A stretch of DNA of 64,000 nucleotides from Streptomyces cathayae (GTDB taxonomy: Bacteria > Actinomycetota > Actinomycetes > Streptomycetales > Streptomycetaceae). The notes beneath the pieces were generated by a model, which saw only the letters and a list, made by a program, of their open reading frames with translations, made no database searches and was not told the DNA's origin. The position numbers were made by a program, and so were the translations under genes. How positions within the stretch are numbered: the stretch's first letter is position 1; every line of letters starts with the position of its first letter. The stretch is taken from the NCBI RefSeq assembly GCF_029760955.1, contig NZ_CP121682.1, positions 6,962,501 through 7,026,500 of the forward strand, given 5' to 3'. This document shows, piece by piece, positions 44,426-63,913 of the stretch.

Positions 44426-45382
44426 GTGCCGGCGAACGAGAGTGTGCACGAACTGGTCGTCCGACGGCGTGACCGGGTGGCCCAGGACGTGGTGCGTCTG
44501 ACCCTGGCGCGGCCCGACGGCGGCGACGTGCCGACGTGGGAGCCGGGCGCGCACCTCGACCTGCTGCTCGACGACGACCTGGTCCGTCAGTACTCCCTGT
44601 GCGGCGACGAGTCGGACCGGTCGCAACTCCAGGTGGCGGTCCTGCGTGAGCCGGCCGGTCGCGGCGGCTCGGCGCACGTGCACGACCGGCTGGCCGAAGG
44701 GGACGTGGTGCGGGTGCGCGGCCCCCGCAACAACTTCGCCCTCGTGGACAGCCCGGAGTACCTCTTCGTCGCCGGCGGCATCGGGATCACCCCGCTGCTG
44801 CCCATGATCCGCCGCGCGGAGGCGGCCGGAGCCCGCTGGACCCTGCTGTACGGCGGGCGGACGCGCTCCAGCATGGCCTTCCTCGACGTGCTCGCCGAGC
44901 AGCCCGGCGACCAGGTGCGCGTCCAGCCGCAGGACGAGTGCGGACTGCTGGACCTGGAGTCGGTGCTGGGGGAGCAGCGGGACGACGTCGCGGTGTACTG
45001 CTGCGGACCGGAACCGCTGCTGGCGGCGGTGGAGAAGCTCACCGCGTCCTGGCCGGAGGGGAGCCTGCACCTGGAGCGCTTCGCCCCCAAGGAGTTCGAG
45101 GACGCCCCCGAGCCGGGGAGCTTCGTGGTGAAGTTGGCCCGCTCCGGCACCACGCTGACCGTGCCCGCCGACCGCTCCCTCGCCGACGTGCTGGACGACG
45201 CGGGGGCCGCGCTGACCACCTCCTGTCGCGAGGGCACCTGCGGCACCTGCGAGACCCCGGTGCTGGAGGGGCGTCCCGACCACCGTGACTCCCTGCTCTC
45301 CGAGAAGGAGCGGCAGGAGGGCAGGACGATGATGCCGTGCGTCTCCCGCTGCCTCTCCGCGACCCTGGTGCTCGACCTGTGA
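44426..45382 (+). CDS. Phthalate dioxygenase reductase-type protein (FMN, NAD, 2Fe-2S)
   Basis: A 318-residue class IA Rieske-oxygenase reductase. In order it has a flavin domain (PTWEPGAHLDLLL, VRQYSLCGDESDRSQLQVAV), a nucleotide domain (FVAGGIGITPLLPMIRRAEA, YCCGPEPLLAAVE) and a C-terminal plant-type ferredoxin with Cys in CREGTCGTC and a fourth in MMPCVSRC. It passes electrons from NADH to an oxygenase. The GTG at 44426 has AGAGG eight bases upstream and is preferred over the GTG at 44417. No Rieske oxygenase or P450 lies in the window, so its partner is encoded elsewhere or it serves another acceptor. It is the first gene after motif A. Confidence 0.9.
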   Translation: MPANESVHELVVRRRDRVAQDVVRLTLARPDGGDVPTWEPGAHLDLLLDDDLVRQYSLCGDESDRSQLQVAVLREPAGRGGSAHVHDRLAEGDVVRVRGPRNNFALVDSPEYLFVAGGIGITPLLPMIRRAEAAGARWTLLYGGRTRSSMAFLDVLAEQPGDQVRVQPQDECGLLDLESVLGEQRDDVAVYCCGPEPLLAAVEKLTASWPEGSLHLERFAPKEFEDAPEPGSFVVKLARSGTTLTVPADRSLADVLDDAGAALTTSCREGTCGTCETPVLEGRPDHRDSLLSEKERQEGRTMMPCVSRCLSATLVLDL

Positions 45383-45589
45383 GCGGCGGGGTGGTCCGGC
45401 GCCCGGCGACCCCCGTGGGCGCCGAGGGACCCACCGGCCGTCCGACGCCGTCCCCACGTCCGGGACCTTCCGCCCGGACGGCCCGTCCCCTTCCGCCGCG
45501 ACACCGCGGTCGTCCTTCCCCGCCCACGCGGACCGAGGTCGCTCGGTCGATCCGCGCGGTGCCCACCTTGCCCCGAACGAGGAGAACCG

Positions 45590-46744
45590 ATGGACACTGA
45601 CCTTTTCGAGCCCGACCACGAGGCGTACCGCGAGACCGCGCGGTCCTTCGTCCATCGGGAGGTCGTGCCGAACATGCAGCGCTGGGACGAGGAGCGCTGC
45701 GTGGACCGGGAGACCTGGAAGAAGGCGGGTCGCGCCGGACTGGTGGGCCTCTCGGTGCCGGAGCGCTTCGGCGGCGCGGGAGAGCCCGACTTCCGCTACC
45801 GCGTGGTGCTGTGCGAGGAGATCGCCCGCGTCGGCGCTTCCTCGCTGCAGTCCTCCTTCAGCACCAACGACGACATCGTCCTCGGATACCTGCTGAACCT
45901 CGCGACGGAGGAGCAGCAGGAGCGGTGGCTGCCCGGCTTCGTCACCGGGGAGACCGTCGGGGCGATCGCGATGAGCGAACCCGCGGCCGGAAGCGACCTG
46001 CGGGGCATCACCACCACCGCCGTCCGCGACGGCGACCACTGGGTGCTCAACGGCTCCAAGACCTTCATCACCAACGGCATCCTGGCCGACCTGATCGTGC
46101 TCGTGGCGCGGACCGACCCGGACGCCGGCAGCAAGGGCTACAGCCTCTTCGTGGTGGAGCGCGACACCCCCGGCTTCACCCGCGGGCGCAAGCTGGACAA
46201 GGTCGGCCTGCAGGCGCAGGACACCGCGGAGCTGTTCTTCGAGAGCGCCCGCGTCCCGGCCGCCAACCTGCTCGGCCCGGTCGGCAGCGGCCTGGCCTCC
46301 CTGATGCAGAACCTGCCCCGCGAGCGCCTGGGCATCGCGGTGGCCGCGCAGAGCTCGGCGGAGGCGGCGTTCCGCTGGACCCTCGACTACGTCCGTGAGC
46401 GGCAGGCGTTCGGCAAGGCGATCGCGGAGTTTCAGAGCGTCGGCTTCACCCTGGCCGAGCTGCGCACCAGCATCGAGGTGAGCCGCGCCTACCTGGACCG
46501 CTGCGTCAGGGCCGTCAACGCCGGAACGCTGAGCGCGGTGGACGCCGCCAAGGCCAAGTGGTGGGCCACCGACATGCAGTGGAAGGTCATCGACGCCGGT
46601 GTCCAACTGCACGGCGGCTACGGCTACATGAAGGAGTACCCGATCGCCCAGGCGTTCATGGACGCCCGCATCCAGCGGATCTACGGCGGCACGAACGAGA
46701 TCATGAAGGAGATCATCAGCCGCGATCTGGTGCGCAACTCCTGA
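45590..46744 (+). CDS. Acyl-CoA dehydrogenase
   Basis: A 384-residue acyl-CoA dehydrogenase of the long-chain/isovaleryl type. The ATG at 45590 has AGGAG seven bases upstream. Typical motifs are AIAMSEPAAGSDLRGITTTA, WVLNGSKTFITNGILADLI, LGIAVAAQSSAEAAFRWTLD, FGKAIAEFQSVGFTLAELRT and QLHGGYGYMKEYPIAQAFMD with the C-terminal IQRIYGGTNEIMKEII. The electron acceptor is presumably ETF. It is about as long as, and clearly similar to, the acyl-CoA dehydrogenase at the end of the next operon. It probably catalyses an alpha,beta-dehydrogenation in the pathway. Confidence 0.94.
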   Translation: MDTDLFEPDHEAYRETARSFVHREVVPNMQRWDEERCVDRETWKKAGRAGLVGLSVPERFGGAGEPDFRYRVVLCEEIARVGASSLQSSFSTNDDIVLGYLLNLATEEQQERWLPGFVTGETVGAIAMSEPAAGSDLRGITTTAVRDGDHWVLNGSKTFITNGILADLIVLVARTDPDAGSKGYSLFVVERDTPGFTRGRKLDKVGLQAQDTAELFFESARVPAANLLGPVGSGLASLMQNLPRERLGIAVAAQSSAEAAFRWTLDYVRERQAFGKAIAEFQSVGFTLAELRTSIEVSRAYLDRCVRAVNAGTLSAVDAAKAKWWATDMQWKVIDAGVQLHGGYGYMKEYPIAQAFMDARIQRIYGGTNEIMKEIISRDLVRNS

Positions 46745-47005
46745 CCATCGGCGCGACCGCGGGCCACAACCCCTCGCCGTCCGCGCGCGAACGATCCGAT
46801 CGCGCGCGGACGGGGGCCCGCGGTACGGCGTCGAGGAACCTCCGGCGGGCACGTGCGGGTGCCCGCCGGAGCCGGACCGGGCGGGACGGCGCAAGGGGCG
46901 CCGTCCGCCGGACGGACGACACGCGGCGGCAAGGCGACGGCCGGGCGCGGTGACGGGCGAAGGCCCGCACCGACGGCCGGGGCGACGAGACACGACGGAG
47001 CGGGC

Positions 47006-47971
47006 ATGACGAAGCGTTGGGGCATCACACTCCCGGTGGCGGGACTCTCGATCGCGGACCAGAAGGAGTTGGTCGCCTCCCTGCCCGACCTGGGCTACAC
47101 CGATGTCTGGTCGGCGGAGGCGGACGAGACCGACGCCTTCACCCCGTTGGCGCTGGCCTCCGCCTGGGCGCCCCGGCTCCGGCTGGGCACCGCGATCGTG
47201 CCGGTCTTCACCCGGGGGCCCGCCACGCTGGCGATGAGCGCCGCGACCCTGGCCGCGGCCGCGCCGGGACGGTTCGCCCTGGGCGTGGGCACCTCCTCCG
47301 ACGTCATCGTCGAACACTGGAACGACATCCCCTTCGAGGAGCCCTACAAGCGGGTCCGGGACACCGTGCGCTTCCTGCGCGCCGCCCTGCGCGGAGAGCG
47401 GGTGGACGAGACCTACGAGACCTTCGCGGTCCGGGGCTTCACCGCCCGGCTCGTCCCCGAGGAGCCGCCGCCGGTGCTGATCGCCGCGCTGCGCCCCGGC
47501 ATGCTGCGGCTGGCCGGCCGGGAGGGGGACGGGGCGATCGTCAACTGGCTCTCCGCGCGCGACGTGCGCACGATCGCGCCTTACGTGCGCGAGCGCGACC
47601 CGGCCAAGGAGATCGTCGCGCGGATCTTCGTGATGCCCGGCGCGGACCCCGAGACGGCCCGCGCCCTGGGCCGAAGGATGATCACCGCCTACCTCAACGT
47701 CCCGGTCTACCGGGCCTTCCACGAGTGGCTGGGCCGCGATGATGCCCTGGGACCGATGTGGCGGGCCTGGGGTGAGGGGGACCGCCGGGCGGCGCTGCGC
47801 GCGGTGCCCGACGAGGTGGTGGACGAACTGGTGATCCACGGCCCCGCCGAGCACTGCCGGGAGCGGATCGGTGAGTACGTCGACAACGGGGTCACCACGC
47901 CCGTGATCCACCTCGTGGGGGACCCGCAGGACCCCGTGCGCGCCGTGCGTGACCTGGCTCCCGACGGCTGA
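47006..47971 (+). CDS. LLM-class F420-dependent oxidoreductase
   Basis: A 321-residue luciferase-like monooxygenase-fold protein. The start ATG 47006 follows GGAG by six bases. The TIM barrel reads WGITLPVAGLSIADQKELVA, DLGYTDVWSAEADETDAFTP, LRLGTAIVPVFTRGPATLAM and FALGVGTSSDVIVEHWNDIP, followed by the FTARLVPEEPPPVLIAALRP segment and CRERIGEYVDNGVTTPVIHL. This matches the TIGR03617-type F420 family of actinobacteria. The cofactor could be F420 or FMN. It is one of three LLM genes in the cluster and sits behind an acyl-CoA dehydrogenase, so a redox step on a CoA ester is inferred. Confidence 0.9.
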   Translation: MTKRWGITLPVAGLSIADQKELVASLPDLGYTDVWSAEADETDAFTPLALASAWAPRLRLGTAIVPVFTRGPATLAMSAATLAAAAPGRFALGVGTSSDVIVEHWNDIPFEEPYKRVRDTVRFLRAALRGERVDETYETFAVRGFTARLVPEEPPPVLIAALRPGMLRLAGREGDGAIVNWLSARDVRTIAPYVRERDPAKEIVARIFVMPGADPETARALGRRMITAYLNVPVYRAFHEWLGRDDALGPMWRAWGEGDRRAALRAVPDEVVDELVIHGPAEHCRERIGEYVDNGVTTPVIHLVGDPQDPVRAVRDLAPDG

Positions 47972-48050
47972 GCGGGTGCGGGTGCCGGGCCGGGCCTCGC
48001 GGGCGACGGACCTGCGCAGGGGCTGGCACCGGAACCCCCGCGCCCCTATG

Positions 48051-48072
48051 ATTATCTATAGTCATTAGTTTA
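48051..48072. promoter_or_regulatory. AT-rich shared motif, copy B
   Basis: ATTATCTATAGTCATTAGTT followed by TA, in a spacer of otherwise extreme GC content, upstream of the aldehyde dehydrogenase operon. TATGAT at 48047-48052 with CTGGCA 18 bases upstream could be the promoter, so the motif would overlap the -10 box and transcription start. Confidence 0.55.
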
Positions 48073-48240
48073 ATGAAGGCAGGCTGCCCTCGCGCTTCGG
48101 CGCCCGTCGCCGTTCTCGCGAGCCTGCCGCGCACCCGCGCCGCCGCGCGCCCCTGGAGCCTGTCACCCCTGCCCGTCAGGGAGCCGGCACGTCCCGGCGG
48201 AACGGCCCACCCAGCGAGGCGGAAGAAACGAGGGAACTCC

Positions 48241-49695
48241 ATGGAACTGGACCGACGGCAACTCTTCATCGGCGGACGGTGGACCGAGCCGGCCGACGCG
48301 AGCGGCCAGGACGTCATCGAGGCCGCCACCGGCAAGGTGCTCGGCCGGACCGCGATGGCCTCCGCCGCGGACGTGGACGCCGCCGTGGCGGCCGCCCGCA
48401 CCGCGCTCGCCGGCCCCTGGGGGAGCATGCCCGCCCAGGAGCGGGCGGACCTGCTGGACCGCTTCGCCGCCGCGCTGAAGGCCCGCGGACGCGAGATCGC
48501 CCCGCTGGTCAGCCGCGAGAACGGGATGCCCCTGTCGCTCTCGATCCCGGTCAACGGGTTCAGCGCCTCGATGACCGTCGCCTACTACGCGCGACTGCTG
48601 CGCGAACTGCCCGAGACGGACGTGCGGCCGAGCCTCATCGGAGAGACCGTCGTGCGCCGCGAGCCGGTGGGCGTCGTCGGCGCCATCACGCCCTGGAACT
48701 ACCCGCAGTCACTGGCCGCCATGAAGATCGGACCCGCGCTGGCGGCCGGCTGCACGGTGGTCCTCAAGCCGGCCCCCGAGACCGCGCTGGACGCCTTCTA
48801 CTTCGCCGACGCCGCACAGGAGGCCGGACTCCCGCCCGGCGTCCTGAACGTCCTGCCGGGCGGCCGCGAGGCCGGGGAACAGCTCGTCTCCCACCCGGGC
48901 GTCGACAAGATCGCCTTCACCGGCTCCACGGCGGCGGGCCGCGCCATCGGCGAACAGTGCGGACGACTGCTGCGCCCGGTCACCCTCGAACTGGGCGGCA
49001 AGTCCGCCGCGATCCTCGCCGAGGACGCCGACCTGGCCGCCTTCACCGCCGCACTGCTGGACGTCAGCCTCACCAACAACGGCCAGACCTGCCACGCCAG
49101 CACCCGCATCCTGGCCCCCGCCGCCCGCTACGAGGAGATCGTCGACGCGGTCACCGACACCGTCCGCGCCCTGCGCGTCGGCGACCCGCTCGACAGGGCG
49201 ACCGAGGTCGGCCCGCTCGTCAGCGCCGCCCAGCGGGACCGCGTGCGCGGCTACGTCGACCTCGGCGTGCGCGAGGGCGCCCGACTCACCACCGGCGGCT
49301 CGGCACCCGTCGACGGCCTGACGGACGGCTGGTTCGTACGGCCCACCGTCCTGGCCGACGTGGACAACGACTGGCGGGTGGCGCGCGAGGAGATCTTCGG
49401 CCCCGTGCTGTGCGTGATCCGCTACGAGGACGAGGACCACGCCGTCGCCCTCACCAACGACTCCGACTACGGACTCGGCGGCACGGTCTGGACGGCCGAC
49501 CTGGACCACGGCATGGACCTCGCGGCCCGCATCCGCACCGGCACCATCGGCGTCAACCAGTACGGCGTCGACCTCCAGGCCCCCTTCGGCGGCGTGAAGG
49601 CCAGCGGCCTGGGACGCGAGATGGGACCGGAGGGGCTGGCCCCCTACCACTCCCTGAAGTCGGTCTACCGACCCGCGCAGGCCGCGACCGCCTGA
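48241..49695 (+). CDS. NAD(P)-dependent aldehyde dehydrogenase
   Basis: A 484-residue member of the ALDH superfamily. GAGGGA precedes ATG 48241. Catalytic residues are visible: Asn153 in TPWNYPQ, Lys176 in VVLKPAPET, Glu250 in LELGGKSA and the nucleophile Cys284 in NGQTCHAST. AFTGSTAAGRAIGE is the cofactor-binding turn. It oxidises an aldehyde to a carboxylic acid. As first gene after motif B, with enoyl-CoA hydratase and thiolase behind it, it may handle the aldehyde released by the retro-aldol reaction of the DUF35/thiolase pair; that connection is inference. Confidence 0.93.
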   Translation: MELDRRQLFIGGRWTEPADASGQDVIEAATGKVLGRTAMASAADVDAAVAAARTALAGPWGSMPAQERADLLDRFAAALKARGREIAPLVSRENGMPLSLSIPVNGFSASMTVAYYARLLRELPETDVRPSLIGETVVRREPVGVVGAITPWNYPQSLAAMKIGPALAAGCTVVLKPAPETALDAFYFADAAQEAGLPPGVLNVLPGGREAGEQLVSHPGVDKIAFTGSTAAGRAIGEQCGRLLRPVTLELGGKSAAILAEDADLAAFTAALLDVSLTNNGQTCHASTRILAPAARYEEIVDAVTDTVRALRVGDPLDRATEVGPLVSAAQRDRVRGYVDLGVREGARLTTGGSAPVDGLTDGWFVRPTVLADVDNDWRVAREEIFGPVLCVIRYEDEDHAVALTNDSDYGLGGTVWTADLDHGMDLAARIRTGTIGVNQYGVDLQAPFGGVKASGLGREMGPEGLAPYHSLKSVYRPAQAATA

Positions 49696-49765
49696 GCCCG
49701 GCGCACGGGCCGCACCGGCGACAGCCGACCGGCCCCACCCGTACACCACAGGAGACAGGACACCC

Positions 49766-50569
49766 ATGAGCAACTCGAAGGAGACGGCCGCGGCGGCCGC
49801 GACGCTGGAGCGGCGCGGCCACGTGGGCATCATCACCCTGAACCGGCCGCAGGCCATGAACGCGGTGAACGCCGCCCTCTCCGCCGCCGTCGGCGCGGCA
49901 CTGGAGGAGATCGCCGCCGACCCCGACCTGCGCGTCGGCGTGATCACGGGCGCGGGCCGGGCGTTCTGCGCGGGCGCCGACCTGAAGGAACTCGCCGCCG
50001 GACGGCCGGTGTCGGCCGAGGACCACGAGGAGTGGGGCTTCGCCGGACTGGTGCAGCACCCCATCGACAAGCCCCTGATCGCCGCCGTCAACGGATTCGC
50101 GCTCGGCGGCGGCACCGAGATCGTCCTCGCCTGCGACCTCGTGGTCGCCGCCGAGGAGGCCCGCCTGGGCCTGCCGGAGGTCAAGCGCGGCCTCATGGCG
50201 GCCGCCGGCGGCGTGTTCCGCATGCCCCGACAGGTCCCCGCCAAGGTGGCCGCCGAACTCCTCTACACCGGCGAGCCGATGACCGCCCAGACCGCCCTGG
50301 AATGGGGACTGGTCAACCGCGTCGTGCCCGGCGAGCACGTGCTGGCGAGCGCGCTGGAACTGGCCGAGTCCATCGCCGCCAACGCGCCCCTGTCCGTGCA
50401 GAGCACCAAGCGGCTCCTGCGCGAGAGCCACGCCTACGGCTCGGACCTGGACCCGCAGCTGTGGACGCTCAACAACAAGGAGATGGGCGCCCTCATGGCC
50501 AGCGAGGACGCCAAGGAAGGCCCGCGCGCCTTCGCCGAGAAGCGCGCACCCCGCTGGACCGGCCGCTGA
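49766..50569 (+). CDS. Enoyl-CoA hydratase/isomerase family protein
   Basis: A 267-residue crotonase-fold protein. The oxyanion-hole motifs are GRAFCAGADLKELAAG and VNGFALGGGTEIVLACDLVV; AEEARLGLPEVKRGLMAAAG and GEPMTAQTALEWGLVNRVVP follow. Hydratase residues corresponding to the two catalytic Glu are plausible in LGLPEVKRG, while the first is not certain. The ATG at 49766 follows AGGAGACAGGA. It is the second gene of the operon starting at 48241. It probably hydrates the product of the acyl-CoA dehydrogenases. Confidence 0.92.
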   Translation: MSNSKETAAAAATLERRGHVGIITLNRPQAMNAVNAALSAAVGAALEEIAADPDLRVGVITGAGRAFCAGADLKELAAGRPVSAEDHEEWGFAGLVQHPIDKPLIAAVNGFALGGGTEIVLACDLVVAAEEARLGLPEVKRGLMAAAGGVFRMPRQVPAKVAAELLYTGEPMTAQTALEWGLVNRVVPGEHVLASALELAESIAANAPLSVQSTKRLLRESHAYGSDLDPQLWTLNNKEMGALMASEDAKEGPRAFAEKRAPRWTGR

Positions 50570-50665
50570 CCTACGGTCCTTGACCACCCCGGACGCCCGC
50601 ACAGCGACCCCGCGGACGTCCGCACCCCACCCCCGTCCGCACCTCTCCCAGGAAAAGGAAGTCCC

Positions 50666-51859
50666 ATGAACGACGCCGTGATCGTGGATGTGATCCGTAC
50701 CCCCTCGGGCAAGGGCAAGCCCGGCGGGCAGCTGTCGGGCATCCACCCGGCCGACCTCCTCTCCCGGGTGCTGCGCGCCCTGGTGGAGCGCAACGACCTC
50801 GACCCCGCACTGATCGAGGACGTCATCGCCGGCTGCGTCTCCCAGTCGGGCCAGCAGACGATGAACATCGCCCGCAACGCGATCCTCGGCGCGGGCCTGC
50901 CCGAGTCCGTCCCCGGCACCACCATCGACCGCCAGTGCGGCTCCAGCCAGCAGGCCGCGCACTTCGCCGCGCAGGGCGTCATGTCGGGCGCCTACGACAT
51001 CGCCATCGCCTGCGGCGTGGAGTCGATGAGCCGGGTGCCGATGTTCAGCAGCTCGCAGGGCCAGGACCCGGCCGGCCCCGCGGTCGCCGCCCGCTACCCC
51101 GAGGGCCTGGTCAACCAGGGCATCTCCGCGGAGCTCATCGCCGCCCGCTGGAAGCTGGACCGCGACGCCCTGGACTCCTTCTCCGCCCGCTCGCACGCCC
51201 GGGCCGCCGCCGCTACCGCCTCCGGCGCCTTCGACAGCGAGATCCTGCCGATCACCGTCACCGACGCCGACGGCACCGAGCGCACCCTGACCACCGACGA
51301 GACCGTGCGCGCCACGACCACCGTCGAGGGACTGGGCGGCCTCAAGCCCTCGTTCCGCGACGAGGCCATGGGCGCGCGCTTCCCGGAGATCGACTGGTCC
51401 ATCACCCCGGGCAACTCCTCCCCGCTGACCGACGGCGCCTCCGCCGCCCTGATCATGAGCGCGGCCAAGGCCGAGGCGCTGGGGCTGCGTCCCCGGGCCC
51501 GCTTCCACTCCTTCTCGGTGACCGGCTCCGACCCGCTGCTCATGCTCACCGGCGTCATCCCCGCCACCGAGAAGGTCCTGGCCCGCGCCGGCCTCGGCAT
51601 CGACGACATCGACGCCTACGAGGTCAACGAGGCGTTCGCCCCGGTCCCCATGGTCTGGCAGCAGGAACTGGGCGCCGACCCCGAGCGCCTGAACCCGCGC
51701 GGCGGCGCCATCGCCCTGGGCCACCCGCTGGGCGGCTCCGGCACCCGCCTGCTGACCACCCTGCTCAACCACCTCGAGGCCACCGGCGGCCGCTACGGCC
51801 TGCAGACCATGTGCGAGGGCGGCGGCATGGCCAACGCCACCGTCATCGAGCGCCTCTGA
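50666..51859 (+). CDS. Acetyl-CoA acetyltransferase (thiolase II)
   Basis: A 397-residue thiolase with all catalytic elements: nucleophile Cys91 in TTIDRQCGSSQQAA, the NEAFAPVPMVW segment (NEAF), GGAIALGHPLGGSGTR with the catalytic His, and the second Cys near the end in MCEGGGMANATV. It cleaves a 3-oxoacyl-CoA to acetyl- or propionyl-CoA and a shortened acyl-CoA. A ribosome-binding site (AGGAAAAGGA) precedes ATG 50666. With the neighbouring hydratase and SDR it completes a beta-oxidation turn. Confidence 0.94.
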   Translation: MNDAVIVDVIRTPSGKGKPGGQLSGIHPADLLSRVLRALVERNDLDPALIEDVIAGCVSQSGQQTMNIARNAILGAGLPESVPGTTIDRQCGSSQQAAHFAAQGVMSGAYDIAIACGVESMSRVPMFSSSQGQDPAGPAVAARYPEGLVNQGISAELIAARWKLDRDALDSFSARSHARAAAATASGAFDSEILPITVTDADGTERTLTTDETVRATTTVEGLGGLKPSFRDEAMGARFPEIDWSITPGNSSPLTDGASAALIMSAAKAEALGLRPRARFHSFSVTGSDPLLMLTGVIPATEKVLARAGLGIDDIDAYEVNEAFAPVPMVWQQELGADPERLNPRGGAIALGHPLGGSGTRLLTTLLNHLEATGGRYGLQTMCEGGGMANATVIERL

Positions 51860-51901
51860 CCCTCCCCCTTTCACCCACCTCGTAAGAAGAAGGGAACAGC
51901 C

Positions 51902-52663
51902 GTGGACATCAACGGCAGCGTCGCCCTGGTCACCGGCGGAGCCTCGGGCCTGGGCCTGGCCACCGTCGAGAAGCTGGTCGCCTCCGGAGCCAAGGTCGTC
52001 ATCGTCGACCTGCCCTCCTCGCCCGGCAAGGAAGTCGCGGAAAGGCTCGGCGACGGCGTCGCCTTCGCCCCCGCCGACGTCACCAGCGAGCAGGACATCA
52101 CCGCCGCGCTGGACGTCGCCCAGGAACTGGGCACCCTGCGGGTGGCCGTCAACTGCGCCGGCATCGGCAACGCGATCAGGACCGTCGGCAAGCAGGGGGC
52201 CTTCCCGCTGGCCGACTTCACCAAGGTCCTCCAGGTCAACCTGATCGGCACGTTCAACGTGATCCGCCTGGCCGCCGAGCGCATCAGCCGCGCCGAGGAG
52301 ATCGACGGCGAGCGCGGCGTCATCGTCAACACCGCCTCCGTCGCCGCCTTCGACGGCCAGATCGGCCAGGCCGCCTACTCCGCCTCCAAGGGCGGCGTCG
52401 TCGGGCTCACCCTGCCCGTCGCCCGCGACCTCGCCTCGCTGAAGATCCGCGTGGTCACCATCGCGCCCGGCCTGTTCGAGACGCCGATCCTGTCCGGACT
52501 GAGCGACGACGCCAAGGCCTCGCTCGGCGCGCAGATCCCGCACCCCGCCCGCCTCGGCAACCCCGTCGAGTACGCGGCGCTGGCCGCGCACATCGTGGAG
52601 AACCCGATGCTCAACGGCGAGACCATCCGCCTGGACGGCGCCATCCGGATGGGTCCGCGCTGA
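51902..52663 (+). CDS. SDR-family 3-hydroxyacyl-CoA dehydrogenase (HSD10-like)
   Basis: A 253-residue short-chain dehydrogenase. NAD-binding [10 protein letters not shown] is at 11-20, NCAGIGNA at 84-91, catalytic Ser146 in VNTASVAAF, Tyr159 and Lys163 in AAYSASKGG. The insertion [16 protein letters not shown] and the [15 protein letters not shown] loop are hallmarks of the type II 3-hydroxyacyl-CoA dehydrogenase/HSD10 group, which oxidises branched or steroid-like hydroxyacyl-CoA. The GTG at 51902 follows AAGAAGGGA. It lies between thiolase and LLM genes and provides the second oxidation in the turn. Confidence 0.92.
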
Positions 52664-55005: not shown

Positions 55006-55042
55006 CGCCGGACGCACCCGCACCACGCCCCGAGGAGCCACG

Positions 55043-56377: not shown

Positions 56378-56440
56378 GACGCCCCGGTCGGTTCCGCCCT
56401 CTCCTCTTGCCTTGGAGGGTGCGGAACCGACCGGGGCGTC
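56378..56440. terminator. Very long bidirectional hairpin between convergent operons
   Basis: A perfect 20-bp inverted repeat (GACGCCCCGGTCGGTTCCGC and its complement, 56378-56397 and 56421-56440) with a 23-base loop lies between the rightward dehydrogenase operon and the leftward thiolase-like operon. The surrounding spacer also has the direct repeat GCACCGGTGCGTGACG at 56246-56261 and 56309-56324. Confidence 0.9.
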
Positions 56441-56456
56441 CTGCACGCGGACCGGT

Positions 56457-57962
56457 TCAGGGACCGGCTGCGTCCTCGGCGTCCGCCAGCCGGGCGGTGC
56501 CGTCCAGGGCCACCCGCACCGGGACGCCGGCCAGCTCCCGTCCGGTCATCTCGGCCAGGTCGTCCGCCTCCTGGCACACCGCCAGGGTCCGTCCGCCCTG
56601 CGGGGTGCGCACGCTCAGGAACGCCCGCTCGGGGCGGCCCTCCCGGTCGTGGAGCACCGTCCACGCCTCCAGCGCACCGGTGCCCTCCCACTGCACCAGC
56701 GCCCGGGTGCGCGGCTCGCGGTCCACCTCCGCCTGCACGTTCTGCGCCCGGAAACCGGCCTGCGGCGGCCGCGTCCCGTACACGCCCATCGCGTGCTTGG
56801 TCAGGTAGCCGCCGTTCGCGGTCACCAGTCCCACCGCCCCCGGCGCGTCCCGCAGCCGGGCGGCCATGGCGGCGATGGAGTGGCTGACGTAGTTGTTCCA
56901 GGGGCCGCCCGCGAAGGTCAGCCCCCCGGTCACGGTCAGCGGACGGGAGGCGTCGTCCAGCGCCAGCCCCAGTTCCCGGGCCGCGATCTGCACCGCGGAG
57001 GGGAAACACGAGTAGACGTCGACCAGATCCACGGAACCGGCGTCCGTGCCCGCCAGTTCCAGCGCCCGTCGCCCGGAGATCCGGATCGCCGGGGAGCGGT
57101 GCAGCTCCCCGCGCGCGCCCAGTTCGAGGGTGTCGTTCGCCTCCGCGCCGGACTGCGGGAAGATCCAGCGGTCGGACGGCACCCCGTGACGGCGGGCGGC
57201 CTCCACGGAGCACAGCAGCAGCGCCGCCCCCTGCTCCACCATGTTGTTGGAGTTCATCAGCTTCGGATAGGGCCAGGCGATCCAACGGTTGTCCGGCGAG
57301 GGCGTCAGGATCTCCTCCGCCGTGTGCGCCCGCCGGATCCAGGCGTGCGGGTTGTCCGCGGCCACCCGGCTGAAGTCCGCCCACAGCCGTGCGCCGACCC
57401 GCAGTTGCTCCTCGACGGTGCGGCCCGCGTCGATCCGGTGCGCCTGCTCGAACAGCGGGTACACCCAGGACGGCGGCTCCAGCCCGATCCGCTTCTCGCC
57501 CTGGCCCAGCAGCGGACCGGAGCCGCCCAGCAGCGGTGCGGCCGGCACCGTCTCGTCCTGCACGGTCCAGGCGGGGCGCTCGCCCCGGGCCCGCAGCCGC
57601 ATCCGGGTCCGCCACGTCTCCGCCCCGCCGATCAGCACGACGTCGGCGCGTCCGGCGGCGATGTCCGACGCGGCACCGTTCAGCAGCGCCTGCGGGTTGT
57701 TGCCGCCGTCGGCGGTGTACGCGGTGTCCCGGGGGGAGGCACCGACCCGCTCCGCGAGCAGGGCGCCGGGGTCGCGGTAGCGCCAGGACAGCATGCGTAC
57801 CAGGCGGACGGCGTCCAGCGACTTCAGCAGCGAGGTGCCGCCCGAGTCGCGCTCGGCCTCGCGGGCCGCCGCGGCCAGCAGGCCGACCGGTTCGAGGGCG
57901 TCGTCCCGCTGGTTGAGCTGCCCGGTGCCGACCAGGACGGGGGTACGGGGGTCGAGGTTCAT
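56457..57962 (-). CDS. Thiolase-like acetyl-CoA acetyltransferase family protein
   Basis: A 501-residue protein of the long thiolase-like group annotated as acetyl-CoA acetyltransferase in actinobacteria, longer than true thiolases by about 100 residues. Features are PVLVGTGQLNQRDDALEP at the N-terminus, TADGGNNPQALLNGAASDIA in place of a classic Cys loop, ADVVLIGGAETWRTR, VDVYSCFPSAVQIAARELGL and FAGGPWNNYVSHSIAAMAAR. A nucleophilic Cys corresponding to thiolase Cys89 is not obvious; CFPSAVQ is the usual second site. The C-terminal 110 residues form an OB-like extension. The ATG overlaps the upstream LLM stop by four bases. It may be a retro-aldolase or condensing-type enzyme. Confidence 0.85.
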   Translation of the reverse strand: MNLDPRTPVLVGTGQLNQRDDALEPVGLLAAAAREAERDSGGTSLLKSLDAVRLVRMLSWRYRDPGALLAERVGASPRDTAYTADGGNNPQALLNGAASDIAAGRADVVLIGGAETWRTRMRLRARGERPAWTVQDETVPAAPLLGGSGPLLGQGEKRIGLEPPSWVYPLFEQAHRIDAGRTVEEQLRVGARLWADFSRVAADNPHAWIRRAHTAEEILTPSPDNRWIAWPYPKLMNSNNMVEQGAALLLCSVEAARRHGVPSDRWIFPQSGAEANDTLELGARGELHRSPAIRISGRRALELAGTDAGSVDLVDVYSCFPSAVQIAARELGLALDDASRPLTVTGGLTFAGGPWNNYVSHSIAAMAARLRDAPGAVGLVTANGGYLTKHAMGVYGTRPPQAGFRAQNVQAEVDREPRTRALVQWEGTGALEAWTVLHDREGRPERAFLSVRTPQGGRTLAVCQEADDLAEMTGRELAGVPVRVALDGTARLADAEDAAGP

Positions 57963-58996
57963 CCGCGCACCGCCTCCAGGATGCGCCCGCGCGCCTCTGA
58001 CCGGGGCCAGCCGGCAAGGATCATCGTGGTGACACAGGTGGGACGCCACGCGCGGGCGATCTCCTCGCAGATCTTGTCGACCGGTCCCACCAGTGCCACG
58101 TCCTCCACCATCGCCGTCGGTACGGCCTCCACCGCTGCCTCCTTGCGTCCCGCCAGATACAGGCCCTGAATCTCCGCGCACACCTCGCCCCAGCCCATCC
58201 GGGCGAAGACCTCGGTGTGGAAGTTGGCGTCCTTGGCGCCCATCCCGCCCGCGTACAGCGCGATCATCGGTTTGATCCTCCTCGCCGCGACCTCGACGTC
58301 GTCGTGCTCGACGATCGGGCAGACCGCGGCGACCTCGAAGTCCTCCGGTCCGCGCCGGGCACCGGGGCGGGTGAACCCCTCGTGCAACGCGTCCCGGTAG
58401 AACGCGTCGCTCCGGGGCGAGAACCACAGCGGGATCCAGCCGTCGGCGATCTCCGCCGCCAGCGCCACGTTCTTGGGACCCTCCGCTCCCAGCAGCACCG
58501 GGATGTCGGGCCGCAGCGGGTGGACCGTGGACCGCAGCGGCTTACCCAGCCCGGTGCCGCCCGGATGCGGCAGCCGGTAGTGGCGGCCCTCGTAGGTCAC
58601 GGGCTCACGGCGCTCCCAGACGCTGCGCAGGATCTCCACGTACTCCCGGGTGCGCTCCAACGGCCGCGGGTAGGGCTGCCCGTACCAGCCCTCGACGACC
58701 TGGGGTCCGGAGGCGCCCAGGCCGAGCATCACCCGGCCCCCGCTGAGGTGGTCCAGGGTCAGTGCCGCCATCGCCGTCGCGGTCGGGGTGCGGGCCGAGA
58801 TCTGGGCCACCGAGGTGCCCAGCCGGATCCGCGAGGTCCGCGCCCCCCACCAGGCCAGGGGGGTGAAGGCGTCGGAGCCGTAGGCCTCGGCGGTCCAGAA
58901 GCTGTCCACGCCCAGCGCCTCGGCCTCGTGCAGGCGCTGCTCGACCTTCGCCGGTGGGCCGGAGCCCCAGTAGCCGGCCTGGAATCCGACCTTCAT
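57959..58996 (-). CDS. LLM-class F420-dependent oxidoreductase
   Basis: A 345-residue luciferase-like enzyme. MKVGFQAGYWGSGPPAKVEQ, LGVDSFWTAEAYGSDAFTPL, IRLGTSVAQISARTPTATAM and [20 protein letters not shown] form the coenzyme site of the TIGR03559 group. YAGGMGAKDANFHTEVFARM near the C-terminus parallels the LLM protein at 52779. GGAGG seven bases before ATG 58996 supports the start. The stop overlaps the thiolase-like gene by four bases, coupling the two. The pairing with a thiolase-like partner suggests that both act on adjacent steps. Confidence 0.9.
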   Translation of the reverse strand: MKVGFQAGYWGSGPPAKVEQRLHEAEALGVDSFWTAEAYGSDAFTPLAWWGARTSRIRLGTSVAQISARTPTATAMAALTLDHLSGGRVMLGLGASGPQVVEGWYGQPYPRPLERTREYVEILRSVWERREPVTYEGRHYRLPHPGGTGLGKPLRSTVHPLRPDIPVLLGAEGPKNVALAAEIADGWIPLWFSPRSDAFYRDALHEGFTRPGARRGPEDFEVAAVCPIVEHDDVEVAARRIKPMIALYAGGMGAKDANFHTEVFARMGWGEVCAEIQGLYLAGRKEAAVEAVPTAMVEDVALVGPVDKICEEIARAWRPTCVTTMILAGWPRSEARGRILEAVRG

Positions 58997-59071
58997 GCGC
59001 GTGCCTCCGCGGTGTGTGGGAGCGACCGGGGGCGGCCGGCGCGCTCCGTGTCGGGTGCGTCCACGAGGGCC

Positions 59072-59884: not shown

Positions 59885-60268
59885 CGGTGCTCCTTGTCCC
59901 GTCACGATGAGATCGGCCCGGCCCGGCCGAGGCTGCCGCGGTGGTCGGCACGGCGGCGGGAAGGGCCGTCGAATTAACCTAATAGCATAAGATTCAACAG
60001 GCAAGGGTTGCGCTGGTGTCGCGGTTCAGTGCATGCGCTTGTCGTGGATAACCAGAAGGCTTTAGGTTGGTGTGGGGGAGTGGGCCGCCGAGGACCACCG
60101 GACCCGCCGACGACCACCCCGGACCGGACCGGCGCCGCCCCGTGGGCGCGGGCCCGCCGGTTCGGACCCGCACCGCGCCCGGCCCGGCCGCGGGGGCCCG
60201 ACGGCCCCCGCGCGACCGCCCGACATCGAGGACCCGCCCCACCGCACGACGGAGGAAGGCCGACACCC
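59885..60268. other. Divergent promoter region of the hydratase and DUF35 operons
   Basis: 384 bases between divergent operons. The left part carries AT-rich motif C with TTGAAT on the minus strand as a possible -35 box. The right part, from about 60090 to 60240, is extremely GC-rich and codes for nothing I can support, leaving a long leader for the DUF35 gene. Confidence 0.5.
59974..59995. promoter_or_regulatory. AT-rich shared motif, copy C
   Basis: TTAACCTAATAGCATAAGAT followed by TC, about 90 bases upstream of the hydratase start and 270 upstream of the DUF35 gene. It has imperfect dyad symmetry (AACCTAAT / ATAAGATT). It shares CTA....CAT.AG.TT with copies A and B. Confidence 0.6.
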
Positions 60269-60706
60269 GTGAAACTCTCCGAGGCACCCACCGCCGGACC
60301 GATCACCCCGGACCCCGACGGCCCCGACCGCCCCTACTGGGACGGACTGCGCCGGGGCGAACTGCGCATCCCCCGCTGCCGGGACTGCGGCCGCCACGTC
60401 TGGGCCCCGCAACGCATCTGCCCCGGCTGCCGAGGCGCCGCGTTCGACTGGCCGGTCGTCGCCCCGACCGCCACCGTCTTCTCCTGGACCCGCACCTGGC
60501 ACCCCTTCCTGCCCGAACTCGCCGACCACGTCCCCTACACCGTGGTCCTGGCCCGACTCGACGAGGTCCCCTCGGTACGCCTGCTGGGCATGCTCGTCGA
60601 CGACGAGAGCACCCTGCGGATCGGAGCCGCCCTGCACGGCGTGATCCAGCCCGCGGGCCCGCTCACCCATGACACCCCCGTCCTGCGCTGGAGGCTCTCG
60701 GCATGA
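60269..60706 (+). CDS. DUF35 OB-fold protein with zinc ribbon
   Basis: A 145-residue protein. The rubredoxin-like zinc ribbon is IPRCRDCGRHVWAP and CPGCRGAAF (four Cys), followed by the OB-fold: APTATVFSWTRTWHPF and VPYTVVLARLDEVPSVRLLG. The N-terminal YWDGLRRGELRI helix is typical. DUF35 proteins pair with thiolase-like lipid-transfer proteins; the Ltp2-DUF35 complex of steroid side-chain breakdown is a retro-aldolase. The GTG at 60269 follows GGAGGAAGG, and the stop overlaps the next gene by four bases, so the pair is made together. Confidence 0.92.
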   Translation: MKLSEAPTAGPITPDPDGPDRPYWDGLRRGELRIPRCRDCGRHVWAPQRICPGCRGAAFDWPVVAPTATVFSWTRTWHPFLPELADHVPYTVVLARLDEVPSVRLLGMLVDDESTLRIGAALHGVIQPAGPLTHDTPVLRWRLSA

Positions 60707-61869
60707 CGTTCCCACTGCGCGGCGCGACGGCCGTGGTCGGCATCGGGGAGACCCCGTACCACAAGCGCGGCAAGGCGCCGCTGGACGAGGACGGCCTGCG
60801 GTTGCAGGCCATCGTCGAGGCCTGCGAGGACGCGGGCGTGGACCCGGCCGACGTCGACGGCTTCTCCACCTACGGCCACGACGCCGACGCCACCGCGCTC
60901 GCCCCCGCACTCGGCACCCGCCGCCTGCGCTGGGCCTCCCAGGTGGCCGGCGGCGGAGGCGGCGGCCTGGGCGCCGCGCTCCTCCAGGGCGCCGCCGCCC
61001 TGGCCATGGGACAGGCCCGGTACGTGATCGTCTACCGCGCCCTGGCCCAGCAGCAGAGCGGACGACTGTCCGCCGCCGTCTCCAGCTACTTCTTCGACGA
61101 GCACTACCGCGCGCACGGACTGGTCTCGCCCGCCCAGGTCTGCGCCCTGCGCACCCAGCGCATGATCGAGCACGACGGCGTCCCGGCCGAGGCGCTGCGG
61201 GCGTTCGCCCAGGCCTGCTACGTCCACGCCGGGCGCAACCCGCTGGCCGCCGGACGGGACGTACGGCTGACCGACGAGACCTACCTGTCCTCGCGCATGA
61301 TCTCCGAGCCGCTGCGGCTGTTCGACTCCTCCCGGGAGAACGACGGCGCCGGGGCCGTGCTGCTCACCACCGCCGAACGCGCCCGGGACCTGCGGCAGAC
61401 CCCCGCCTACGTCCTGTCCGGGGCCCAGGGCGCGGGGGAGGACTGGGGCGAGCTGCACGAGAACGACCGTGACTACTCCTCGGCCGGCCTCGCCCCGCTG
61501 GCCGACGAGCTCTGGGCGGACGCGGGCATCCGCCCCGAACAGGTCGACGTCGCCCAGATCTACGAGAACTTCACCGGCCCCGCCGTCGCCGTCATGCTCG
61601 ACCTGGGACTGGTGACCAGGGAGAACATCGGGGAGCTGCTCACCGTCGAGAGCCTCACCGCCCCCGGCGGCCGCCTCCCGGTCAACACCGCCGGCGGCAA
61701 CATCGCGGGCGGGTTCGTGCACGGCATCGGTCTGGCCGCCGAGGCCGTCCGGCAACTGCGCGGCACCTCCTCCAACCAGGTCCCCGGGGCCCGCGTCTCG
61801 CTGCTCACCGGCGGCCCCGCGGCCCCCCTGGTCAGCGCCGTGGTGCTGGGCGGCGAGGACACCCTCTGA
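60703..61869 (+). CDS. Thiolase-like lipid-transfer protein (Ltp/retro-aldolase type)
   Basis: A 388-residue thiolase-fold protein. It reads GATAVVGIGETPYHKRGKAP at the N-terminus, EDAGVDPADVDGFSTYGHDA, RWASQVAGGGGGGLGAALLQ and ends with VNTAGGNIAGGFVHGIGLAA plus the GGPAAPLVSAVVLGG terminal strand. The catalytic thiolase Cys and the GHPxGxSG loop are replaced, as in Ltp-type aldolases. Coupled translation with the DUF35 protein predicts a heteromeric complex that cleaves a beta-hydroxyacyl-CoA by a retro-aldol reaction. Steroid-type side chains are the known substrates of such complexes, but the substrate here is unknown. Confidence 0.9.
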   Translation: MTFPLRGATAVVGIGETPYHKRGKAPLDEDGLRLQAIVEACEDAGVDPADVDGFSTYGHDADATALAPALGTRRLRWASQVAGGGGGGLGAALLQGAAALAMGQARYVIVYRALAQQQSGRLSAAVSSYFFDEHYRAHGLVSPAQVCALRTQRMIEHDGVPAEALRAFAQACYVHAGRNPLAAGRDVRLTDETYLSSRMISEPLRLFDSSRENDGAGAVLLTTAERARDLRQTPAYVLSGAQGAGEDWGELHENDRDYSSAGLAPLADELWADAGIRPEQVDVAQIYENFTGPAVAVMLDLGLVTRENIGELLTVESLTAPGGRLPVNTAGGNIAGGFVHGIGLAAEAVRQLRGTSSNQVPGARVSLLTGGPAAPLVSAVVLGGEDTL

Positions 61870-61908
61870 TTCGTGGGGGCGGAGGTCACCGGGCGCGCCC
61901 GGTGACGT

Positions 61909-62473
61909 TCACGCGGGGTGATCCGGTCGGACGGGGTCGCGGGACCACTCCAGCCGGTCCGTCGTGGTGCCGCCCGTGCGGGTGGGACGCGGTTCGGTGT
62001 GCAGCACGAGCCGCGGACCTTCCCACGAGATCCGCCGGGTCAGGACGTCACCGACGTGTTCGACGTACAGCGACATCTCCACGTGGTGCAGGACCAGGTC
62101 GCCGCGGAGCGTGTACCGGCCCGCGTAGCCGACGAAGCCCAGGGCGGCCGCGCCCCGCTGCTCGTCGGTGGCCCGGGTGAAGGAGAGGCCGTCGGGCCAG
62201 GGGCGGTCGCGACGCATCAGCAGCGCGCTCATCCGCCCGTCGGGCCGGTACTCCAGCCGTCCCAGCGGCCCCGGCCCCAGCGGGTGCCCGATGACCTGTC
62301 CGTCGACCAGCCGGGTGTGGTCGACCAGGTTCCAGCCGCCGAGCAGCGAGGCGGCGAGGCCCTGGGCGGTGTGCTCGTCGGGGGCGTCCTCCTCGGGAGC
62401 CGGTGCCGAGGGGGAGGGGACGCGGCTGTCGGGCGGCGTCCGCCCGTCGGGGGTGTGTGCGGCAGGGGGGCAT
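61909..62473 (-). CDS. Lipocalin-like domain protein with a probable frameshift near its start
   Basis: The frame from 62232 downward and its open upstream continuation spell a Lipocalin_5-type domain: SLLGGWNLVDHTRLVDGQVI, GPGPLGRLEYRPDGRMSALL, FVGYAGRYTLRGDLVLHHVE and TRRISWEGPRLVLHTEP. Upstream of residue SLLGGW the frame has no ATG, GTG or TTG before the stop of the MFS gene. An ATG at 62473 is in frame only if the six-G run at 62465-62470 (C6 on the coding strand) is read as five. So there is either a frameshift or a sequencing error in the homopolymer. Such small lipocalin-like proteins bind hydrophobic ligands and often accompany catabolic clusters. Confidence 0.65.
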
Positions 62474-62569
62474 GACGGTCCGATCGTTCGGCGGCGGACG
62501 GCCGCTCCCGGCGGTCGGCGGGTGGCCGACCGCCGGGAGGGCGGAGCTGGGTCGCGCGCGGGACGTGGG

Positions 62570-63913
62570 TCAGGCGGCGGGGGCGACCTCCTGCGGTTCG
62601 GTGGACGGGGCGGTGCGGTCGTGCATGCCGGTCCGCGGCACCAGCACGATCAGCAGCGCGGCCAGCAGCGCCGCCGCGGCGAAGAAGTAGAACACCCACG
62701 AGGTACCGAGCGAGGAACCCATGATCAGACCCACCAGGATCGGCCCGAAGACGGCTCCCAGCCGGCCCAGGCCCAGCGAGGCACCCAGAGCGGTGCCGCG
62801 CGCCGCGGCCGGGTAGTAGACGCCCACGAACCCGGCGACCGCGGCCTGCGAGGAGGCGCAGAACCCGACCACCAGCACCATGGCGAAGACGACGGCCTGC
62901 GGGGGATGCATCGTCAGGGAGGTCACCGCCAGGGCTCCGCACAGGAAGCCGCCCGCGATCACCGGGCGCGATCCCCAGCGGTCGGCGAGGCCGGCCAGGA
63001 CCAGCATGCCGATCGTGCTGCCCAGGTAGAAGGCGACCAGGAAGGTCAGCGCGGAGCCCAGGTCGTAGCCGGAGGCGCGCAGCAGCTGCGGGATCCAGGT
63101 GTTCATGCCGTAGCCCAGCAGCAGACCGCAGAAGCCGATCACCGGGAACAGCAGCGTCGCGACCCGGAACCCGGGGGCGAACATCAGCTTCAGCGAGGAG
63201 GACCAGTTCGGCTTCTCCGTCACGGTACCGACCGCCGGCTCCGGAGGCAGCTCGACCCCGTAGCGCTCGGCGAGGGCGCGCGCCTCCTCGTGGCGTCCCC
63301 GGCTGCTGAGGAAGGCGAGTGATTCGGGGATCTGCCGGTAGACGATCGCGAACAGTGCCAGTCCGATGGCACCGCCGAGGACGAACAGGGAGACCCAGCC
63401 GAAGTTCGGCAGCATGAAGATGGCCAGGAAGGCGACCAGACATCCACCGATGGGGAAGCCGGTCTGGACGACGCCGTTGTAGAACTGCCGCCTCTCCACC
63501 GGCACGTACTCCATGGTCAGGGCGATGACCGAGGGCAGGGCACCGCCGAAGCCCAGGCCCGCGAGCAGGCGGAACAGTCCGAAGACCTCCACGCTGGGGG
63601 CCACCGCGCACAGCAGGGTGAACACGCTGAAGCTCGCCACGCAGGCGAGCACGGTCGGGCGCCGTCCGATGAGGTCGGCCACGTAACCGGACAGCATGGC
63701 ACCCACCATCATCCCGATCAGGGAGAGGCTGCCGATGACACCGGCCGAGGCGAGGGTGATGCCCCACTGCTTGTCCTGGAGCAGCGTCGGCAGCACCGCG
63801 CCGTACATGCCGCTGTCCAGTCCGTCGATGAGCGTGATCGACAGACAGGCGAAGACCACCGACCGGGCACCCGCCGAGATTCTCGGACGCACTGCCGAGC
63901 TGGGTCGAGTCAA
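62570..63913 (-). CDS. MFS transporter of the aromatic acid/H+ symporter type
   Basis: A 447-residue membrane protein with 12 predicted segments. The AAHS-type signature is VFACLSITLIDGLDSGMYGA with the acidic DGLDSG in helix 1, MMVGAMLSGYVADLIGRRPT (motif A) and RLLAGLGFGGALPSVIALTM. A cytoplasmic loop (SSRGRHEEARALAERYGVEL) separates the halves. Start: TTG 63913 lies six bases after AAGGAG and gives the usual N-terminus; no ATG is available nearby. It probably imports the carboxylic acid that the cluster degrades. It is transcribed toward the lipocalin-like gene, 96 bases away, and is probably co-transcribed with it. Confidence 0.9.
   Translation of the reverse strand: MTRPSSAVRPRISAGARSVVFACLSITLIDGLDSGMYGAVLPTLLQDKQWGITLASAGVIGSLSLIGMMVGAMLSGYVADLIGRRPTVLACVASFSVFTLLCAVAPSVEVFGLFRLLAGLGFGGALPSVIALTMEYVPVERRQFYNGVVQTGFPIGGCLVAFLAIFMLPNFGWVSLFVLGGAIGLALFAIVYRQIPESLAFLSSRGRHEEARALAERYGVELPPEPAVGTVTEKPNWSSSLKLMFAPGFRVATLLFPVIGFCGLLLGYGMNTWIPQLLRASGYDLGSALTFLVAFYLGSTIGMLVLAGLADRWGSRPVIAGGFLCGALAVTSLTMHPPQAVVFAMVLVVGFCASSQAAVAGFVGVYYPAAARGTALGASLGLGRLGAVFGPILVGLIMGSSLGTSWVFYFFAAAALLAALLIVLVPRTGMHDRTAPSTEPQEVAPAA

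Follow-up and report, generated by a model that had tools for sequence, protein, structure and literature searches.

A putative TetR-type catabolic regulon of Streptomyces cathayae that combines a DUF35-dependent aldolase with F420-linked enzymes

Retro-aldol cleavage is the step by which the side chain leaves in the ibuprofen (ipf) pathway, as outlined in the consulted part of its description (PMC9195938). The corresponding genes ipfABDEF (pIBU218, NZ_CP059320) provide a coenzyme A (CoA) ligase, a Rieske oxygenase and an SCP-x-type aldolase with a DUF35 partner, the same kinds of protein as in the locus studied here. The steroid side-chain aldolases offer a functional parallel (PMC12329534 and PMC12502768, consulted excerpts), and the iad pathway for indole-3-acetate in Variovorax paradoxus CL014 begins with a Rieske enzyme, removal of the acetyl side chain then falling to an acyl-CoA synthetase together with an acetyltransferase-like enzyme (PMC12633357, consulted section). 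Here, we analysed a stretch of 64,000 nucleotides (the window; positions 6962501-7026500 of contig NZ_CP121682.1) from the 7.6-Mb genome of Streptomyces cathayae. Its interval 44426..63913 is the left 20 kb of an island of ~36 kb that continues for about 16 kb past the right window edge (64000). We hold, with a probability of roughly 60%, that this island is one TetR-type regulon that lets the bacterium take up an organic acid, probably a cyclic one, and grow on it by CoA activation, oxidation, retro-aldol side-chain cleavage and F420-linked steps. Its genes look like one catabolic unit, since an operator-like sequence is confined to the island and many of the same genes recur with this operator in related clusters.

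The candidate operator is a 23-bp imperfect palindrome, TTAAyCTA-n5-ATAAGrTTAA, first spotted by eye in AT-rich intergenic stretches. Its sites in the window are (coordinates, strand):
44355..44377, +, operator-like palindrome with 1 mismatch, at a distance of 49 bp from the downstream reductase gene FdR
48051..48073, +, weaker operator-like site before the aldehyde dehydrogenase gene ALDH, 4 mismatches
59974..59996, no strand assigned, operator-like palindrome in the divergent intergenic region between the hydratase gene ECH2 and the DUF35 gene

The window scan gave three match rows at two places, against none in 100 shuffles. Across the whole genome, six rows with at most 3 mismatches fall at five places, all between 7006855 and 7038018 (31 kb), and the reversed pattern, run as a control, had no match. 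At this threshold, and for a pattern read off these very sites, the shared operator stands before the operons of the island and nowhere else in the genome. The five places precede FdR, ECH2 (about 90 bp; DUF35 on the opposite side), the CoA ligase gene LIG2 (80 bp), the importer gene and the Rieske gene. Weaker sites with 4 to 5 mismatches lie before ALDH (48051), before the TetR gene (68655) and at 64627 and 70316.

The genes of the window part of the island are (coordinates, strand):
44426..45382, +, FAD/NAD/[2Fe-2S] reductase (FdR; Fer2, FAD_binding_6, NAD_binding_1), first gene of the interval
45590..46744, +, acyl-CoA dehydrogenase 1 (ACAD1), second-best PDB relative a mitochondrial long-chain acyl-CoA dehydrogenase
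47006..47971, +, LLM1, F420-dependent family TIGR03841, start uncertain (the open reading frame opens at 46853)
48241..49695, +, aldehyde dehydrogenase (ALDH)
49766..50569, +, crotonase-type enoyl-CoA hydratase (ECH1)
50666..51859, +, classical thiolase (THL)
51902..52663, +, HSD10-type 3-hydroxyacyl-CoA dehydrogenase (SDR)
52779..53831, +, LLM2, F420-dependent family TIGR03559 (Rv3520c)
53902..55005, +, alpha-methylacyl-CoA racemase (RAC)
55043..56197, +, acyl-CoA dehydrogenase 2 (ACAD2), 58% identical to ACAD1
56457..57962, -, thiolase-like protein type 1 (TLP1), motif YSCF
57959..58996, -, LLM3, F420-dependent family TIGR03559
59072..59884, -, crotonase-type hydratase (ECH2)
60269..60706, +, DUF35 zinc-ribbon/OB partner protein (zf-ChsH2, OB_ChsH2_C), start picked by eye
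60703..61869, +, Ltp2-like aldolase (ALD), motif Y287-E-N-F
61909..62232, -, lipocalin-like protein
62570..63808, -, MFS importer related to aromatic acid/H+ symporters, start uncertain

The downstream 16 kb were read on stretch L065, whose position p equals window position 60499+p:
4258-5058, SDR downstream of the importer
5215-6393, Rieske oxygenase of the ring-hydroxylating type
6933-7886, GNAT protein of ~317 amino acids
8368-9018, TetR regulator
9378-9713, small protein labelled SnoaL-like by eye, no Pfam match at 1e-5
10194-11717, AMP-forming CoA ligase LIG1 (Pfam AMP-binding, 274.9 bits)
between LIG1 and the next gene, SDR
12781-15000, molybdopterin oxidoreductase
15099-16700, AMP-forming CoA ligase LIG2 (NF005863, 554.4 bits against a cut-off of 543)
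between LIG2 and the next gene, SDR
18979-19695, NADPH-F420 reductase (npdG; TIGR01915, 256.6 bits against a cut-off of 149.8)

A preliminary description of the interval, made from its letters, had read it as three LLM oxidoreductases, two similar acyl-CoA dehydrogenases, a methylacyl-CoA racemase, an HSD10-like SDR, a DUF35/Ltp aldolase pair, an extra thiolase-like protein and an aldehyde dehydrogenase around an importer, and these assignments agree with the family evidence given below, the TLP1-type protein and the aldehyde dehydrogenase included. FdR, the two crotonase-type hydratases and the classical thiolase were absent from that list. Its statement that CoA ligases and ring-cleavage enzymes are lacking is correct inside the window, but LIG1, LIG2 and the Rieske oxygenase follow downstream in the same island; no ring-cleaving dioxygenase was seen among the scanned proteins, which are a subset of the open reading frames of the island. 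The missing ligase and oxygenase are thus an edge artefact of a window that ends inside the island, which weakens part of the argument for novelty.

Recurrence of the set was traced through the Rieske protein. Among genomes sampled from the genus, 2 of 392 carry it at E <= 1e-60 (its own and G181), as do 2 of 396 in a phylum sample (its own and G459), but in another actinobacterial family, f6, 38 of 351 sampled genomes have a match at E <= 1e-100. Named proteins of the same Rieske type come from Rhodococcus (sp. NCIMB 12038 among them), Nocardia, Mycobacterium, Gordonia, Amycolatopsis and Pseudonocardia, suggesting which organisms carry this protein. The aldolase is 98% identical in Streptomyces sp. 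NWU339 and 87% in S. viridosporus. We compared 26 island genes, counting relatives from at least 40% identity, with 22 loci (L111-L132) drawn from 20 of the 38 f6 genomes plus G087 and G181; leaving out L112, the near-identical locus of Streptomyces G181, gives 21 neighbourhoods, which are 20-kb stretches with many clusters incomplete at the edges. Each of the 21 holds 2 to 12 of the 26 genes (median 7), and stretches of 60 to 80 kb hold 14 (G1072), 17 (G1106), 15 (G1030) and 12 (G874). The 17 relatives in the 60-kb stretch of G1106 are 44-78% identical, among them THL (72%), SDR (75%), LLM3 (78%), ECH2 (72%) and the molybdopterin enzyme (60%). Over the 22 loci, relatives were counted for ALDH in 19 (67-73% in 12, the other 7 having a second type at 40-46%), ACAD1 in 18 (68-74%), TetR in 16, LIG1 and SDR1 in 13 each, ALD in 12, FdR in 12 (55-61%), DUF35, TLP1 and the SnoaL-like protein in 9 each and ECH1 in 7. 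LLM3 has relatives of 64-80% in L012 and in 4 of the 22 loci, 3 of those 4 being incomplete. The operator accompanies these genes: at up to 3 mismatches it was found in 17 of the 21 neighbourhoods (28 sites). Of these sites, 26 have their centre 22-96 bp before the estimated start of a gene related to one of the island; 30 shuffle rounds and 39 control loci (471 kb; Streptomyces paralogue loci L037-L064 and plasmid stretches L076-L086) gave none. Confined to the island and recurring upstream of relatives of its genes, the operator makes it probable that the island is one TetR-type regulon, with the island TetR protein as the regulator that presumably binds it.

Several observations weigh against this reading. 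The pattern was derived from the island's own sites, so that independent evidence comes only from its restriction to the island and its reappearance in other loci, and the control loci were unmatched in composition. The sites that precede the Rieske and importer genes are far from the gene starts, by about 250 bp and by 300-500 bp (the importer start itself being uncertain), and 4 of the 21 neighbourhoods have no site at this threshold. Judged from alignment rows, the DNA-binding region of the TetR relatives is hardly more conserved than the rest. Its GVRAPSLYHHF stretch is kept in 21 of 34 rows, own and near-identical copies counted. Gene content is uneven as well. For RAC, ACAD2, LLM1, LLM2 and the lipocalin, the 21 neighbourhoods offer no relative of at least 40%, and the racemase meets only CaiB-type matches of 27-37% there or none; LIG2 and npdG have relatives only in near-identical L112, and the MFS importer is matched in just two places, L127 (65%) and the wide stretch of G1030 (63%). 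Given this poor conservation, these eight genes may be an added module. In Pseudonocardia and Amycolatopsis, too, a lipocalin gene stands next to genes for an aldolase and an MFS protein, the latter 48-64% identical (64% in Pseudonocardia). Partial recurrence in the 21 neighbourhoods and in the four wide stretches shows that the gene combination is not unique.

Related clusters show further features. At least two molybdopterin oxidoreductase genes occur in L114, L136, L139 and L133, and in G1030 a gene for a ferredoxin-type protein, seen by eye, lies between two of them. A GNAT-type protein (~317 amino acids) adjoins the Rieske gene in many clusters, mostly at 28-38% identity and so below the 40% count. 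Near the related cluster of G874 (L140), proteins that by eye and unscanned resemble Mce, YrbE and ABC-ATPase components suggest that this cluster may use a different importer. Upstream of the S. cathayae island, an acyl-CoA dehydrogenase gene and a TetR gene (window 40990-43008) lack the operator even when 5 mismatches are allowed; they probably do not belong to the regulon. A DDE_Tnp_IS240 transposase lies well upstream (window 33191-33910), and a transposase-like fragment was seen by eye directly past npdG (L065 19682-19987). These traces on both sides perhaps reflect horizontal transfer, insertion sequences as island boundaries being only suggestive. An Rfam scan of the window returned no match.

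The ALD/DUF35 pair is likely a retro-aldolase. The two genes overlap by a few bases, the best PDB match of ALD is 6ok1 (TcLtp2; E 3e-49), and its Tyr287 aligns with the TcLtp2 base Tyr294. As for Ltp2/ChsH2, the adjacent partner gene encodes zf-ChsH2 and OB domains; it has no MaoC domain. A point against this reading is that ALD has Asn in place of Ltp2 His296 and Phe338 in place of Tyr344; it shows neither the YDHF motif (here YENF) nor the catalytic Tyr344 of the steroid aldolases. All 43 aligned rows that reach 42% identity across more than 200 residues (duplicate copies of one gene among them; three shorter rows excluded) have YEN with F, M, A or T as the next residue. The site equivalent to Tyr344 is Phe in 31 of them (about 49% identity or more) and Tyr in 12 (43-48%). 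In a tree of 59 rows, rooted for drawing only and with long branches flagged, 43 rows, all with YEN, form one clade with support 100/100, to which neither IpfD nor the YDHF protein of pIBU218 nor the YDAF paralogues of Streptomyces belong. Two distant actinobacterial aldolases (L033 and L034; 33-34%) also carry YENF and fall outside the clade, branching with the YDHF protein; the motif alone therefore does not define the clade, and it may have arisen twice or be ancestral. TLP1 has YSCF where SLPs have YDCF, and since YDCF-bearing SLPs are discussed as possible aldolases in the consulted part of PMC12329534, this "thiolase-like" protein could itself be an aldolase.

Evidence for the remaining enzymes is mostly at family level. 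LLM1 scores 311.9 bits against TIGR03841 (cut-off 213.65), and LLM2 and LLM3 score 503.9 and 478.1 against TIGR03559 (cut-off 335); since the genome also holds the F420 biosynthesis gene cofD (423.3 bits; cut-off 257.45), the three are predicted F420-dependent LLM oxidoreductases. Three NADPH-F420 reductases of the genome exceed their cut-off, one of them inside the island. Proteobacterial loci of the first named set have no close LLM3 relative (27-29% in L022-L024), so that F420 is not common to all users of this aldolase. RAC matches 1x74, the MCR of Mycobacterium tuberculosis (E 4e-141), and its scores (MCR 473.7 bits, racemase FAR 423.1, next CaiB-family entry 127.7) place it nearer racemases of the MCR/AMACR type than CoA-transferases; the functional residues His126, Asp156 and Glu241 are aligned. 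SDR resembles type II 3-hydroxyacyl-CoA dehydrogenases (6ujk, 344 bits; 1u7t, presumably human HSD10, 299 bits), and both acyl-CoA dehydrogenases are full length. The importer was described beforehand as of the AAHS type (aromatic-acid/H+ symporters); TIGR00895 is indeed its best family, but 269.4 bits against a cut-off of 418.55 argue against membership proper.

We infer the order of steps and the substrate class from these families, the aligned Tyr base of the aldolase, the shared operator and the partial recurrence of the set. The MFS protein would bring the acid in, and LIG1 and LIG2 would activate it to its CoA ester. RAC would epimerise the alpha-methyl group if the chain is 2-methyl-branched, as the presence of the racemase suggests for the Streptomyces studied here; RAC may be dispensable in the wider family. 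ACAD1/2 would dehydrogenate the chain at the alpha,beta position and ECH1/2 hydrate it to a beta-hydroxyacyl-CoA, which might alternatively arise through hydroxylation by the Rieske oxygenase with FdR, its probable electron donor. ALD/DUF35 would then cleave the C-C bond with release of acetyl- or propionyl-CoA, ALDH would oxidise a released aldehyde, and SDR and thiolase would take off the remaining carbons by beta-oxidation. F420-linked hydride transfers by the LLM proteins are probable, without a fixed place in this order, and the island NADPH-F420 reductase would regenerate F420H2. Of the features proposed in the preliminary description, retro-aldol cleavage and the F420-linked steps appear likely, whereas the methyl branch, which rests on the racemase, is kept as a possibility because RAC is missing from the 21 neighbourhoods. 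More tentatively, and with somewhat less than even confidence, we propose an uncharacterised actinobacterial pathway, organised as a TetR regulon. In it, CoA ligases and a Rieske enzyme would make an acid that is cyclic and perhaps methyl-branched ready to be cut by DUF35-dependent retro-aldolases of a new class, with the YEN motif and in this branch Phe for the Ltp2 acid Tyr344, and F420-dependent hydride steps with a dedicated NADPH-F420 reductase would replace part of the usual NAD/flavin chemistry of side-chain removal. If true, the pathway would be present, by its Rieske protein, in 38 of the 351 sampled genomes of one actinobacterial family without a description that we found. The operator would offer a direct route to the inducer, and DUF35-dependent aldolases, so far studied chiefly for steroids, would gain a further catalytic layout. 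The range of known F420 functions would also grow, to include steps of an aerobic CoA pathway that has an F420 reductase of its own embedded in it.

An ibuprofen-like route is unlikely. Here, a 2-arylpropionic acid would be ligated to CoA, epimerised by RAC and hydroxylated by the Rieske enzyme at the chain-bearing ring carbon, whereupon the aldolase would release propionyl-CoA and leave a catechol. In addition to the enzyme kinds shared with ipfABDEF (PMC9195938, consulted part), all five betaproteobacterial plasmid loci examined (L076, L077, L078, L080 and L081; 5 of the 9 best matches) hold Rieske, reductase, CaiB, YENF aldolase, OB-fold (DUF35) and racemase genes, with the racemase 50-57% identical and beside the aldolase. 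A racemase at 52% was also seen in one sphingomonad. Among 26 named loci (L009-L034), L017 alone has a racemase of at least 50%; in L009 and L010 the position of this gene would fall outside the stretch. However, the plasmid Rieske proteins belong to another subfamily, LigXa-type by Pfam in L076 (the Variovorax protein tested), the others being 62-93% relatives of the L076 copy or of a Delftia copy, and no racemase of at least 40% occurs in the 21 actinobacterial neighbourhoods. IpfA, D, E and F are just 28-30% identical to island proteins (IpfA over 198 residues), IpfD groups apart in the aldolase tree, the pIBU218 dioxygenase has a beta subunit that was not seen among the scanned island proteins, and the many acyl-CoA dehydrogenase, hydratase and thiolase genes would be superfluous to the ipf scheme. 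The five plasmid loci also carry a FAD_binding_2 enzyme (3 of 5) and a nitroreductase (3 of 5). Indole-3-acetate was considered for the Variovorax matches and rejected; in its annotation, the Variovorax locus has no acyl-CoA synthetase or formamidase by the Rieske gene, unlike iad as given in the consulted section of PMC12633357.

A second alternative, that a beta-oxidation operon for methyl-branched (isoprenoid) acyl-CoAs merely adjoins an unrelated aromatic-acid island, has a low probability. A racemase, LCAD-like dehydrogenases, an HSD10-type SDR and a thiolase are the classic branched-chain set, and conservation of the Rieske/aldolase core does not extend to RAC, ACAD2, LLM1 and LLM2. Yet ACAD1, ALDH, ECH1, THL and SDR all have 63-75% relatives in the G1106 cluster, and FdR and ALDH each have an operator-like site ahead of them, that of ALDH with 4 mismatches. 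Variant degradation of steroid or bile-acid side chains is very improbable. The Ltp2-like aldolase with DUF35 (6ok1), the methylacyl-CoA racemase and the naming of TIGR03559 after Rv3520c, presumably located near ltp3/ltp4, would fit it, but the aldolase is outside the YDHF, YDCY and YDAF types and the Rieske enzyme has 34 PDB relatives, not one of which bears the name of a ketosteroid hydroxylase. Consistently with the earlier remark that steroid hallmark genes are lacking, no MaoC-type ChsH1/ChsH2 hydratase was present among the scanned proteins, genome-wide steroid genes not having been searched for. Finally, a biosynthetic cluster for a secondary metabolite, to which the Streptomyces host and the use of LLM and ACAD enzymes in biosynthesis might point, is extremely unlikely given the importer, thiolases, ligases and racemase, the lack of polyketide or peptide synthases among the scanned proteins and the recurrence of parts of the set in other actinobacterial families and proteobacterial loci.

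Our preferred reading, a regulon for retro-aldol removal of a side chain from an imported acid, can thus be set against the known systems. No described orthologous cluster, and none of known substrate, was found in the literature searched, which covered titles and abstract starts with subscription journals mostly outside, so that an earlier description is possible. The papers that came up dealt with ibuprofen, indole-3-acetate, steroids and Rhodococcus in general. Abscisic acid was considered as a substrate; no gene evidence was found for it. With respect to ipf, two LIG2-IpfF pieces are 32-34% identical, IpfB had no match among the island proteins compared, and orthology was not supported for any of IpfA, B, D, E and F. 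IpfD (YDAF) and the island aldolase (YENF) are on separate branches, the ipf dioxygenase has two subunits, and the pIBU218 stretch has no annotated LLM/F420 gene and a CaiB protein 33% identical to RAC. Besides ipfDE, that stretch carries a second lipid-transfer-type aldolase with an Ltp2-like YDHF motif, together with OB-fold, hydratase and CaiB genes (L086 5939-9557). The iad system is set apart by its description rather than by sequence, having a two-subunit oxygenase, an amidase and MarR regulators (PMC9613470, consulted part). Ltp2-ChsH2 and Sal-Shy share with the island an aldolase of the thiolase-fold family, a DUF35 partner and the aligned Tyr of YDHF/YDCY; unlike them, the island has YENF, Phe at the Tyr344 site, crotonase-type hydratases with no MaoC type among the scanned proteins, and a 43-row clade of its own. 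The predicted logic resembles ipf and steroid side-chain removal, but comparison of the proteins places the island with neither. The uncharacterised f6 clusters of Rieske, acyl-CoA dehydrogenase, TLP1 and aldolase genes differ in that a CaiB pair replaces the racemase in many, further molybdopterin oxidoreductases are present, an MFS relative was read in only two loci and no lipocalin or npdG relative was found; they share up to 17 of the 26 island genes and the same operator.

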